This document shows positions 53,641 to 57,999 of a stretch of DNA of 64,000 bases, one piece after another (the first letter of the stretch is position 1; each line of letters starts with the position of its first letter). Position numbers and translations under genes: made by a program. The notes beneath the pieces were generated by a model. It worked only from the letters and a program-made list of their open reading frames with translations. It was not told the DNA's origin and did not search any database. Source of the DNA: Vulcanococcus limneticus LL (GTDB lineage Bacteria > Cyanobacteriota > Cyanobacteriia > PCC-6307 > Cyanobiaceae); NCBI RefSeq assembly GCF_002252705.1, contig NZ_NQLA01000001.1:1-64000 (forward strand), in the 5' to 3' direction.

Positions 53641-54304
53641 ACCGGGACAGGCGTGGGCTCAGGCCGCGGGCCCCGTCCGCCCAGTACGGTTCAGTATGTT
53701 CATCTTGAACGACCCTATCCGTGCTCACTGAGTGTCTTGGAAGATCCCTTGATTCCTGCCGATGGACTCGATCGCTTGAGTGACTTCTACGGCGATGATG
53801 TCTTGGATGCGGAGGCGGATCCCGGTATTGATGTCATCAGGGAGTTGGCATGGCAAGTTGGTACGGCATACCGCCTGGGTCGGCATCCATGGGGTGAGCC
53901 TGGTCATGTCCAACGCACTGGAGGATCTTCACTTCACAGGCAATCCTTCGTTGATCGGTGATTCCCAGGGAGGCCAAGGTGAGCCTCCTTGCCGATGTCG
54001 ACTTGGGGTGCTCTTGCGGTTTGAGCAGGAGAAGGCCCGGGTGGACGCATCGCTGCGCGCAGCATCAGCCTGACAAGCCAGATGTGACGCAATGGCGTCC
54101 TGTCCATGGCCATGGGCTTCCCGATCGGCACCGCCATGGGCCGCCACACTGGCCAGAGCTCCCAGGCCAACCTGGCTAAAACCAGCCTGACTGCGCGGGC
54201 GACGCGTGGCAGTGCCAGCGGCAACTTCCGCTTCGTGGATCGGCACCGGAGGAGCCCAGTGACATCCCAATCTCGCGCCCCTGACCGCTGGCCCGGCGCC
54301 TGGG
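53641..54304. other. 664-bp region without a confident gene
   Basis: Several short plus-strand frames exist (for example 53653-53961, encoding Leu-Asp-Arg-Leu-Ser-Asp-Phe-Tyr-Gly-Asp-Asp-Val-Leu-Asp), but they overlap each other and lack a recognisable family. The segment around 53690-53830 is richer in AT than the flanks. The stretch may hold a small gene, a remnant, or the promoter region for the rightward part of the island. No repeat or terminator was recognised. Confidence 0.35.
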
Positions 54305-55123
54305 TTAGTCGCGGGCGCGGCGGTTGATGCCGTCCACGGCGCGCATGGCGGCGGCGGCGGCCTCCTCCACGTCGCCCTCGCGGCCCGCCAGGGTGAGCCG
54401 GCCGAAGGCCCCCACCCCCTTCACGTCCACGATCGTGATGTTGGAGGACTTCTCGGCCTCATTGGCGGCGATCAGCACGTAGCCGGCGGGCTCGGTTTCG
54501 AGGATGAACATGCTCATGCCGGCCTGGATCATCGAGCCGCGGCGGTTCTGGCGGTTGATCAGCACCGCGTGGTCGGGTGTGATGGCGCGGATGATCTCGG
54601 TCCAGCTCACCTCGCAGCGGCTGCGCTGCTCCACGGTGCTGCCGATGGCCTCGAGCACCACCTCGCCCGAGTGGAGCACGTTGCTCTGGTCGCGGTGGTA
54701 GAGCGCCAGCGAGCCGAAGGCCCGCTCCACGATCATCTGGCCCAGGCGCACGGTGCTGGCCTTGAGGGCGATGTCGGTGACGCGGTGCACGGCCATGCCG
54801 GGCGAGACCTCGAGCCACAGGCAGGCATCGCCCGGGATCGGCAGGAAGCCCTGGCTCACCGTGCCCATGTAGGCGGCGAGCTGGGGCTGGAGCGAATCAA
54901 GGAAGACGTAGGTGCGCAGCTCGATCGACTGCACATGGCTCGACTGCCGGCTCAGCCGGGCGCCCTCGGCGTCGGTGGTGATGACACAGCTGGCGGCCGA
55001 TGGTGTCGGGCCCGGACCCCCACCCAGACCGCTGCCGCTGCCGAGACTGCCACCACTGAAGCCAAGGTCGGTTCCGGTGATCTGCACCGACCGCGCTCTG
55101 GCCCTGGGGATGCGGTTCGGCAA
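54305..55123 (-). CDS. csoS1D: Tandem-BMC shell protein CsoS1D
   Basis: A roughly 272-residue protein with a low-complexity Gly/Ser-rich N-terminus (about 50 residues) and two BMC domains. These include [16 protein letters not shown], Gly-Met-Ala-Val-His-Arg-Val-Thr-Asp, Val-Glu-Arg-Ala-Phe-Gly-Ser-Leu, [12 protein letters not shown], and [10 protein letters not shown]. CsoS1D trimers stack into hexamer-like units with a large gated pore, thought to pass RuBP and 3-PGA. The start is uncertain: a TTG at 55123, or a GTG at 55087. Confidence 0.92.
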
Positions 55124-55411: not shown

Positions 55412-55723
55412 ATGCTCTCCCCCCCCGCCACCCGCCTGCGGCTGCAGGAGATCCTGGATCGCCTCTCGGCGGGCCGGGCCGTGGCACTCGAGGAGCGGAT
55501 CTACCTCCAGAAGTTCGCCGACCGGGATCCGCGGGTGGGCACCTGGCTGCGGCGCGCGCGCCGCCAGCAGCAGGCGGCCACGGGCGATGGCCTCGACCGC
55601 CTGCTCGCCGGCCTGGACCTTGGGGATCCGGATCCAGCCCCTCCCTTTCGACCCGACCCGGAGGATCCCGGCGACTTGGGTGACTGGTTCGGCAGCGCCC
55701 CGGGCTGGCTCAGGCGCAGCTGA
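55412..55723 (+). CDS. Small unknown protein in the CCM island
   Basis: A 103-residue soluble protein starting Leu-Ser-Pro-Pro-Ala-Thr-Arg-Leu-Arg-Leu-Gln-Glu-Ile-Leu-Asp-Arg-Leu-Ser. A helical part contains Arg-Ile-Tyr-Leu-Gln-Lys-Phe-Ala-Asp-Arg-Asp-Pro-Arg-Val. The rest is Asp/Pro/Gly-rich and ends in Gly-Trp-Leu-Arg-Arg-Ser. I do not recognise the family. It lies between csoS1D (divergent) and the ODP-GGDEF gene (convergent, overlapping by 14 bp), so it may be a carboxysome or carbon-uptake accessory. Confidence 0.6.
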   Translation: MLSPPATRLRLQEILDRLSAGRAVALEERIYLQKFADRDPRVGTWLRRARRQQQAATGDGLDRLLAGLDLGDPDPAPPFRPDPEDPGDLGDWFGSAPGWLRRS

Positions 55724-57383
55724 TCCGATCGCGGCCCTCCCGCTTGGAGCGGTAGAGGGCTCCATCGGCGCGCTCCAGCACCGTGGCGAAGTCCTCGGTG
55801 CCCGAGGCGGCGGCGCCAGTCCCCGCCTGGGCGATGCCCAGGCTCAGGCTGATGTGGCCCTCGGGGGCGAGCCCCTCCAGGTCGAGCCTGGCCGTGCTGG
55901 TGCGGATGCGCTCGGCCACGGTGAGGGCCGAGGGCTGATCCGCGGCGGGCAGGACCAGCAGGAACTCCTCACCCCCCAGTCGGTAGACGGCATCCTGCGG
56001 ACGCACCGAGCGGGATAGCAGCGAGGCCAGGCGCTGGAGCACCAGATCGCCGGCGCCATGGCCGTAGCTGTCGTTCACAGCCTTGAAGTGGTCGATGTCG
56101 ATCGAGATCAGGGCGTAGGGCGTCGACGGAACCTGCTGCTCCAGGGCGCGGCGGTTGGCCAGGCCCGTGAGGGCGTCGCTGTAGGCCGCCTCCCGCAGGG
56201 CGGCGGTGTTCCGCTGCTGGCGCACGCCGTGGAGGTAGTGCTGTAGCCAGGGCCGCATCGTCGTCGCCACCTCCCGCAGCATCGCCAGCAGTTCCGGGTC
56301 TCCCTCGTCCTGGCCCTCGCTCCAGCGCAGGGCCAGCAGGGCGGCGGGCTCGCCAGGCAGCGCCACCCGCACCCAGTCCGCCGGGGGAAGGCGGCGCTCC
56401 GCCGCACGCTGCCCCTCTCCCCAGCTGCACCAGCCGGAGCCGGGCAGGTCGATCGCCAGTTCGCAGTCGGCCACGGTGCCGGTCGACGCCAGGATCGTGC
56501 GCAGGCTGGCCACCAGGGCCGTGGGGCTGTCCTGGCTGATCAGGGCCTCCGTGATGCGGCCGCGGGCCTGGGAGATGCGCAGCAGTCGCTTCAGGTCCAG
56601 GTCGGCATCGGCCAGGCAGAACACGCCGCAGTCGATCTCCGTGAGCCGCTGAAACACCTCGGCAACGACCGGGCCAGGCACGATGTGGCCGTGCTGGGGG
56701 GCGATGCGCTGGATCCGGGGCCAGTGCAGCTGGATGCGGTTGAGGCCGGCCGTCAGCAGCTCCCGACTCGGCATGTAGTGCTGGTGGAAGGGCCGGGCGT
56801 TGTCGATCAGGTAGTCCACATCACTCGACTCCAGCACCGCCGCATCGGGCACGAAGCCGCCGAACAGGTCGGAGGAGAAGAGCGTGCCGGTGCCCGTGTC
56901 GAAGGAGACGAAGGCACCAGGAAAGTGCAGGTAGGGGGTGAGCTGGAACTCCAGACGCCGTTCCCCGGCCAGGGGCAGGCACCAGCCGTGCTCCTCCACC
57001 CGGTAGTAGCTGAAGCGGTGGCCGTAGTGGCGCAGCAGGGCCTGGGCGCGCCACTCGGTGACCACCTCCACGTCCGGGCGCTTCAGGCGCTCGGAGAGCA
57101 GCGGCAGGCTTGCGGCAATGTCGGGATCACAGTGGTGGCAGACGATGTAGCGGATCGCCTCCAGGTCGCGGATGCGGGCCACCTTGCGCAGGGTCGCCTC
57201 GATCGTGAGCGGTGAGCCGGGGTCGATCAGGACCCCCCTGCTACCGTTATCGAGGTAGTAGGCGTGGCACTGGAAGCGGTCGTCGGGCAGGCGCATGCCC
57301 ACCCACCAAATCTGCGGCGCGATCTGGATGGGCGCCTCTGGATCGAAGCCTTGCAGGCTGATGGGCAGCTCCGACAGGACCAT
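55710..57383 (-). CDS. ODP-type di-iron metallo-hydrolase fused to a GGDEF diguanylate cyclase
   Basis: A 557-residue fusion. Residues 1-265 are a metallo-beta-lactamase domain of the oxygen-binding di-iron protein (ODP/FDP) type: His-His-Cys-Asp-Pro-Asp (the ODP variant of HxExDH), Leu-His-Phe-Pro-Gly, Ser-Ser-Asp-Leu-Phe-Gly-Gly-Phe and Pro-Gln-His-Gly-His-Ile. Residues 270-390 are a middle helical region, possibly sensory. Residues 400-557 are a GGDEF domain with an active Arg-Leu-Gly-Gly-Glu-Glu-Phe and an intact inhibitory Arg-Pro-Gln-Asp five residues before it. It would make c-di-GMP, gated by O2 or redox state. The stop overlaps the convergent small gene. Confidence 0.88.
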   Translation of the reverse strand: MVLSELPISLQGFDPEAPIQIAPQIWWVGMRLPDDRFQCHAYYLDNGSRGVLIDPGSPLTIEATLRKVARIRDLEAIRYIVCHHCDPDIAASLPLLSERLKRPDVEVVTEWRAQALLRHYGHRFSYYRVEEHGWCLPLAGERRLEFQLTPYLHFPGAFVSFDTGTGTLFSSDLFGGFVPDAAVLESSDVDYLIDNARPFHQHYMPSRELLTAGLNRIQLHWPRIQRIAPQHGHIVPGPVVAEVFQRLTEIDCGVFCLADADLDLKRLLRISQARGRITEALISQDSPTALVASLRTILASTGTVADCELAIDLPGSGWCSWGEGQRAAERRLPPADWVRVALPGEPAALLALRWSEGQDEGDPELLAMLREVATTMRPWLQHYLHGVRQQRNTAALREAAYSDALTGLANRRALEQQVPSTPYALISIDIDHFKAVNDSYGHGAGDLVLQRLASLLSRSVRPQDAVYRLGGEEFLLVLPAADQPSALTVAERIRTSTARLDLEGLAPEGHISLSLGIAQAGTGAAASGTEDFATVLERADGALYRSKREGRDRISCA

Positions 57384-57546
57384 GGACCGAGTGGGCTCGC
57401 GGCGGCCGGGCCGCTCAGGCCGGTGGCCGAATCTGGGTCAGCCAGACCATAGACGCCCTGGCGGTCTGGTGGACATCGCTCTGCACACCCCCTTGCATGC
57501 CCGTTCGCAGGGGGTACCGTCCGGCCACCCCCCAGCCCGAAGCTCC

Positions 57547-57999
57547 GTGGCCCCCAAGCGCGCTGCCTCCAACGGTTCCACCGTCGCCCAGCCCCTGCCG
57601 GGCAGCGCCGATCCCCAGGGCCTCGGGGCCTGGATCGCCGAGGCCGTGGGCCCCGGCGTGAAGGCCGAGCAGGCCCTGGCGCTGGTGGGGCTGGGCCTGA
57701 TGCAGAAGCTGGCCGCCAGTGGTGAAGCGCCCTGGAGCTGGAGCGAGGCCGAGGATGGCGGCAGCTGCGATGTGGCCCAGCTGCGCCATCGCCTGGAGCT
57801 GATCGATCTGGCCCTGAAGACCGGCGCGCCCCTGAGCACCGCCGAGGTGACGTTCCTGCTGGGGGCCCGTCCCGGCGCCGCCCAGGTGGAACGGGGTGGT
57901 CTCAAGGCCCGCCGCCTCAGTCGCAACGTCTGGAAGCTGAGCCAGGCCAGCGAGTCCGACCGCGCCAGCGCGTTCAACGACGGGCGGCGGCGCTTCTGA
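57547..57999 (+). CDS. Unknown protein in the CCM island
   Basis: A 150-residue soluble protein starting with GTG. The N-terminus is basic. The centre has alternating helices (Leu-Gly-Ala-Trp-Ile-Ala-Glu-Ala-Val-Gly, Leu-Met-Gln-Lys-Leu-Ala-Ala, Leu-Glu-Leu-Ile-Asp-Leu-Ala-Leu-Lys). The C-terminus has Leu-Ser-Thr-Ala-Glu-Val-Thr-Phe-Leu-Leu-Gly-Ala-Arg-Pro-Gly and Arg-Asn-Val-Trp-Lys-Leu, which resembles a helix-turn-helix (Ala-Glu-Val-x-x-Leu-Leu-Gly-x-Arg-Pro). A small DNA-binding regulator of the next operon is plausible but unproven. The upstream start is uncertain. Confidence 0.6.
   Translation: MAPKRAASNGSTVAQPLPGSADPQGLGAWIAEAVGPGVKAEQALALVGLGLMQKLAASGEAPWSWSEAEDGGSCDVAQLRHRLELIDLALKTGAPLSTAEVTFLLGARPGAAQVERGGLKARRLSRNVWKLSQASESDRASAFNDGRRRF

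Follow-up and report, generated by a model that had tools for sequence, protein, structure and literature searches.

An ODP-GGDEF fusion in the CCM island of Vulcanococcus limneticus and its relatives, a candidate O2- or Fe(II)-gated diguanylate cyclase

Here we describe a gene of Vulcanococcus limneticus LL that couples an ODP-type sensor domain to a GGDEF diguanylate cyclase within an island of CCM genes, found in a 64,000-nucleotide stretch of contig NZ_NQLA01000001.1 (the window). Both the pairing of ODP with GGDEF and its place in the genome are real and common to relatives. The protein is probably an O2/Fe(II)-gated diguanylate cyclase that feeds a large, general c-di-GMP network, and its position in the CCM island would be inherited. 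Domains, ligands, cyclase motifs, predicted fold, purifying selection and synteny are read directly from sequences and structural models; metal and O2 binding, enzymatic activity, the sign of the response and the output of the cyclase we infer. The first-pass annotation of this DNA had located the gene and its ODP and GGDEF domains correctly, the ORF being intact and both domains recovered by Pfam (Table 1).

Table 1. Features of the ODP-GGDEF gene and its surroundings, in window coordinates
Feature	Position	Strand	Basis
ODP - GAF-like - helix - GGDEF gene, 557 aa	55710..57383	(-)	intact ORF
ODP di-iron metallo-beta-lactamase-fold domain, aa 37-232	56688..57275	(-)	PF19583 and Foldseek
First ligand motif, H84-C-D86-P-D88	57120..57134	(-)	aligned to PDB ODP chains and orthologues
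H153 ligand codon	56925..56927	(-)	invariant in alignment
D172 ligand codon	56868..56870	(-)	conserved except in L126 (G274)
Q230-H231, ODP-specific Gln and His ligands	56691..56696	(-)	alignment; Gln feature per PMC7785958
Small GAF-like domain, aa 262-362	56298..56600	(-)	AlphaFold2 pLDDT 89; Foldseek best matches GAF proteins
Long helix, aa 363-400, probable coiled-coil linker into cyclase	56184..56297	(-)	AlphaFold2 models
GGDEF diguanylate cyclase domain, aa 400-553	55725..56186	(-)	PF00990, E=6.9e-37
GGEEF active-site motif, aa 470-474	55962..55976	(-)	invariant
RxxD inhibitory site, R461-D464	55992..56003	(-)	R and D invariant
csoS1D (tandem BMC shell protein)	54305..55123	(-)	PF00936 9e-8; CcmP-related, below that model's cut-off; position
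small102, conserved ORF of ~103 aa between cyclase gene and csoS1D	55412..55723	(+)	convergent, 3' ends overlap
Divergent conserved neighbour, start uncertain	57451..57999	(+)	equivalent place in nearly all family loci
Degraded GAF-GGDEF-EAL gene remnant, ham1-csoS1D interval	53743..54220	(+)	three collinear DNA matches

By profile, ligand and predicted-fold tests alike, the sensor domain is an ODP in the strict sense and not a flavodiiron protein (FDP). PF19583 (ODP) matches at E=8.6e-48, scoring 163 bits where the cut-off is 27.2, over positions 1-194 of the 194 in the profile. Alignment with ODPs in the PDB and with orthologues recovers the ODP ligand set (H84, D86, D88, H153, D172, Q230 and H231), and Foldseek sets the predicted first unit on the ODP crystals 6qrq, 6qwo and 6r9n (the last a peroxo-diiron form) with TM of 0.78-0.84 by target length. 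A PDB sequence search finds that solved ODPs read H-Q-D-P-D at the first ligand motif; the "H-x-C-D-P-D-like" variant earlier assigned to the protein was thus off by one, and the motif is the ordinary ODP H84-x-D86-P-D88. Cysteine 85 was rejected as a ligand, as homologues carry C, S, P or Q at this position. The Gln beside the last His, in place of the superfamily's third motif-2 His, has been described as a peculiarity of the Thermotoga ODP (motif 5) (PMC7785958), and in Treponema the ODP serves chemotaxis by sensing oxygen (PMC7666581); ODP particulars throughout are taken from these two papers and PDB titles. FDPs (Flv) share a homologous di-iron metallo-beta-lactamase-fold core, but they carry H-x-E-x-D-H and a flavodoxin domain, whereas the window protein has Ile (I89) in place of the last His, an added Gln and no flavin domain. 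Indeed, FDP membership failed both in the alignment, at I89, and in Pfam, which gave no flavodoxin match, while the FDP that this genome does encode has H-x-E-P-D-H and no such Gln. A di-iron site is accordingly predicted from the ligand residues of the window protein, and it would bind metal and O2.

At the other end of the protein, the first-pass annotation's claim of intact catalytic and inhibitory motifs holds up: GGEEF and the R and D of RxxD are invariant in 15 of 15 aligned homologues, those from Desulfoprunum and Mariprofundus included, as are D429, N437 and D446, which belong to the metal- and nucleotide-binding set. Foldseek places the last globular unit on diguanylate cyclases, and diguanylate cyclase activity is predicted. 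Between sensor and cyclase lies a region that the earlier inventory had overlooked, comprising a GAF-like fold (aa ~262-362) and a helix of 38 residues. Modelled alone with AlphaFold2, this middle region forms a small alpha/beta domain (pLDDT 89) whose best Foldseek matches are GAF proteins at TM of about 0.5-0.6, none at E<0.001, for which reason we term it GAF-like only; Pfam gave no GAF match in the window protein; of the homologues, the Desulfoprunum one alone showed GAF_2, weakly and below the cut-off. The helix runs into the cyclase, a layout common to many sensor cyclases, and in the models is probably a coiled-coil linker. A full-length AlphaFold2 model built on 15 homologues resolves three globular units with a mean pLDDT of 87, and its pTM of 0.49 leaves the relative placing of the domains uncertain.

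Purifying selection falls most heavily on the sensor. In simple NG86 counts over nine g6 CCM copies with all metal ligands, dN/dS is 0.05-0.23 in the ODP domain, 0.17-0.55 in GGDEF and 0.17-0.57 in the middle region, the lowest values marking the sensor as the most constrained part of the protein; with orthologue dN/dS well below 1 and the Pfam E-values above, a chance origin is excluded. A copy in one g6 genome, G274 (L126 8711-10327), has lost five of the seven metal ligands (H84N, D88E, D172G, Q230R and H231Q), and its ODP dN against the other g6 copies is 0.16-0.21, about double theirs (at most 0.10). Its GGDEF domain is not relaxed and its cyclase motifs are intact. As far as sequence can tell, sensing and output are decoupled in G274, and cyclase output can outlive sensing.

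The G274 copy bears on the idea that the ODP domain is a structural or dimerisation scaffold, or a binder of another metal, with the GAF-like domain carrying the signal. That the cyclase was kept after five ligands were lost agrees with such a role, as do the crystallisation of a zinc-reconstituted ODP and the capacity of metallo-beta-lactamase folds to hold other metals. However, all other intact copies retain the complete ligand set, and it is the ODP domain that is most constrained and the GAF-like domain that is least conserved. We therefore regard this explanation as unlikely, and prefer an ODP domain that senses O2 or Fe(II).

The setting in the CCM island, as first annotated, is borne out by the flanking genes, with csoS1D, ham1, sbtA, sbtB, csoS1, cbbL, cbbS and csoS2 on one flank and ndhF4, ndhD4 and chpX on the other. 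In the window, the ODP cyclase gene is divergent from its 5' neighbour, for which neither Pfam nor NCBIfam gave a match, and convergent with small102, for which no family match was found and which has counterparts of 56-72% identity at the equivalent place in other family genomes. (small102 adjoins csoS1D in other family genomes and is deleted in G150, the nearest relative of the window genome.) An operon with csoS1D in the window was rejected, because small102 lies convergent between the two genes with overlapping 3' ends; a promoter and terminator scan found nothing. In g6 genomes, the ODP cyclase gene and csoS1D stand in tandem, about 200 bp apart.

The same neighbourhood also holds other c-di-GMP genes. 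In G150 and G286, which belong to different genera, a three-gene operon (Tll0287-like/PAS, GGDEF and GAF-GGDEF-EAL) lies between csoS1D and ham1 (L161 11936-16619; L174 371-5012), and its 88-92% identity across the two genera points to a recent transfer into the CCM island, as judged from sequence comparison. Homologues of its PAS protein occur at E<1e-100 in 15 of 400 genomes, and at the csoS1D-ham1 site were seen only in these two. Both carriers have lost the ODP gene, a coincidence that at n=2 proves nothing. The window itself holds a dead part-copy in this interval: the remnant gives DNA matches of 67-78% to the intact EAL gene of G150 (L161) at the equivalent site, and its best tblastn score is 33.5 bits, compared with 20.4 or less in every shuffled and other-window control.

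Across the family, the gene is patchy. In a sample of 400 family genomes, ODP matches at E<1e-20 turned up in 21, of which four hold only distantly similar proteins (about 25%). An intact copy lies 5' of csoS1D in 11 genomes, namely the window and ten g6 genomes (G132, G198, G208, G217, G235, G175, G257, G309, G334 and G274), so that the fusion beside csoS1D that the first-pass annotation had remarked on recurs at the equivalent site and the gene is present in the island of related g6 genomes. Three genomes, G298 (g6) and two of g23, carry copies away from CCM genes; in G023 (g23), a 317-aa transposase gene (L113 7853-8806) interrupts the ODP-GGDEF gene at the GAF-like/GGDEF junction. Frameshifted or deleted remnants mark the CCM site in six further g6 genomes (G292, G113, G148, G005, G090 and G286), and at least seven decays or deletions have occurred there; a gene lost this often is dispensable. 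Beyond the family, in a phylum-wide search of 386 genomes that scored up to four candidates per genome, nothing passed E<1e-40 apart from the window and one broken copy, and the fusion outside cyanobacteria is represented here by two loci, L010 (Desulfoprunum) and L011 (Mariprofundus erugo). In the gene tree the g6 CCM copies group together; the copies of the window, g23 and G298 are not placed, with long-branch warnings.

Despite this patchiness, the gene is old within the family. G150 retains a 54-bp stub that corresponds to the 3' end (91% DNA identity, the last 15 residues identical), fused to the upstream flank, which indicates that the gene predates the split between the window genome and G150 and was then deleted in the latter. 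A foreign origin by composition was rejected, since the GC of 70% and GC3 of 0.91, and likewise codon use, resemble those of neighbouring genes. The stub and the native composition together argue for long residence and repeated loss over recent arrival. That the gene is instead a recent passenger, transferred into the island and heading for loss, would fit its absence from the other examined members of the window's genus, the repeated decay at the site and the neighbouring operon's evidence that transfer into the site occurs, but is very improbable given the G150 stub, the 60% identity of the window protein to g6 copies, the neighbour-like composition and the low dN/dS.

A more pointed proposal is that the protein is a dedicated CCM regulator, in which O2 or redox state sets c-di-GMP and thereby CCM genes or the carboxysome shell through a receptor near csoS1D. 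The equivalent position of the 11 intact copies, the g6 tandem arrangement and the second c-di-GMP operon across csoS1D in two genomes, with its part-copy in the window, are all in keeping with this. So is a precedent from Synechocystis, where the c-di-GMP-responsive ComFB acts with SyCRP1, a regulator of some CCM genes (PMC13249358); ComFB-SyCRP1 is the only route from c-di-GMP to a CCM regulator that we found in the literature searched. However, ComFB (PF10719), a c-di-GMP receptor known from other cyanobacteria, was found in 0 of 42 family genomes, with S. elongatus positive as a control, and we reject it as the c-di-GMP receptor here. (Most of these 42 genomes have several to many GGDEF proteins.) Furthermore, genomes without the gene keep an identical gene order (divergent neighbour, csoS1D, ham1, sbtA, csoS1, cbbL), the site has decayed repeatedly, copies also exist outside the CCM island, and small102 precludes an operon with csoS1D in the window. 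Indeed, the flanks are collinear with or without the gene in almost all family members examined, so inheritance suffices to account for the common position. We hold a dedicated CCM regulator to be decidedly unlikely, although direct CCM control by the cyclase is possible. The more specific notion of a local c-di-GMP circuit around csoS1D, in which the ODP cyclase worked together with the formerly neighbouring EAL phosphodiesterase gene to relay O2/Fe(II) state to the carboxysome or Ci uptake through a novel receptor in alpha-cyanobacteria, is in our judgement very doubtful. Of the first-pass suggestion that O2 or redox state is linked to the CCM through c-di-GMP, what stands is the di-iron-type sensor fused to an intact GGDEF; support for a CCM role goes no further than location, and nothing was found for a role in buoyancy.

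The reading we favour, an ODP cyclase that feeds the general c-di-GMP network, finds such a network in the window genome, with 29 GGDEF, 17 EAL and 6 PilZ matches. Across the g6 genomes counted, all at least 88% complete, the median number of other GGDEF matches is 18 where the gene is intact and 7 where no trace of it is found (Mann-Whitney p=0.002, ignoring relatedness). This association is only suggestive: it is compatible with a sensor that supplies a general network, and may also reflect phylogeny.

Perhaps the protein works as follows. In darkness, dense aggregates or sediment, a drop in intracellular O2 would leave the site diferrous; in light, O2 would bind and oxidise it, giving an iron-peroxo or ferric form. 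The change at the site may then be relayed by the GAF-like domain and the helix that follows it, altering the geometry of the GGDEF dimer, with RxxD feedback capping the output of the cyclase. We guess that activity goes with the reduced state, by analogy with VcBhr-DGC, the nearest working precedent, whose activity is about 10-fold higher when diferrous (PMC9388753). The c-di-GMP produced would join the general network, most likely governing surface or aggregation behaviour, and the place beside csoS1D would be inherited, with no CCM output required.

Several known systems resemble parts of this arrangement. The ODPs of Treponema denticola (TDE2498) and Thermotoga maritima (6qrq, 6qwo, 6qnm and 6r9n) are alike in predicted fold and in the full ligand set including the Gln, but are stand-alone chemotaxis sensors; in the oxygenic phototroph considered here, the ODP domain is one part of a chain that also contains a GAF-like domain and a cyclase. 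The Vibrio cholerae hemerythrin-GGDEF protein VcBhr-DGC follows the same logic, its diguanylate cyclase being attached to an O2/redox sensor that is likewise of the non-heme di-iron kind; it differs in its hemerythrin fold and ligands, and has no GAF-like domain. Globin-coupled cyclases (DgcO/DosC, PccGCS and BpeGReg) share the O2-dependent synthesis of c-di-GMP that is predicted here, but do so with a heme sensor of another fold. Closest in layout are the Desulfoprunum and Mariprofundus erugo proteins, which share domain order, ligands and cyclase motifs at 34-35% identity; they differ in a longer GAF-type middle and in hosts of other phyla, in which a CCM context is not expected. No biochemistry on any ODP-GGDEF protein was found in the literature. 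A 2022 census of c-di-GMP sensory inputs gave no hit for ODP, lactamase or diiron, and a search by term of two reviews on CCM regulation showed no direct c-di-GMP input to carboxysomes.

Heme-globin, heme-PAS and hemerythrin sensors are known to place c-di-GMP under O2 control; beside them an ODP-gated cyclase, if true, would be a further route from O2 to c-di-GMP. Relatives of the window genome offer intact, metal-ligand-less and deleted versions of the gene at one site for comparison. For an oxygenic phototroph, an ODP cyclase would be a plausible way to sense whether it is day or night, or whether the cell is in open water or a dense aggregate.
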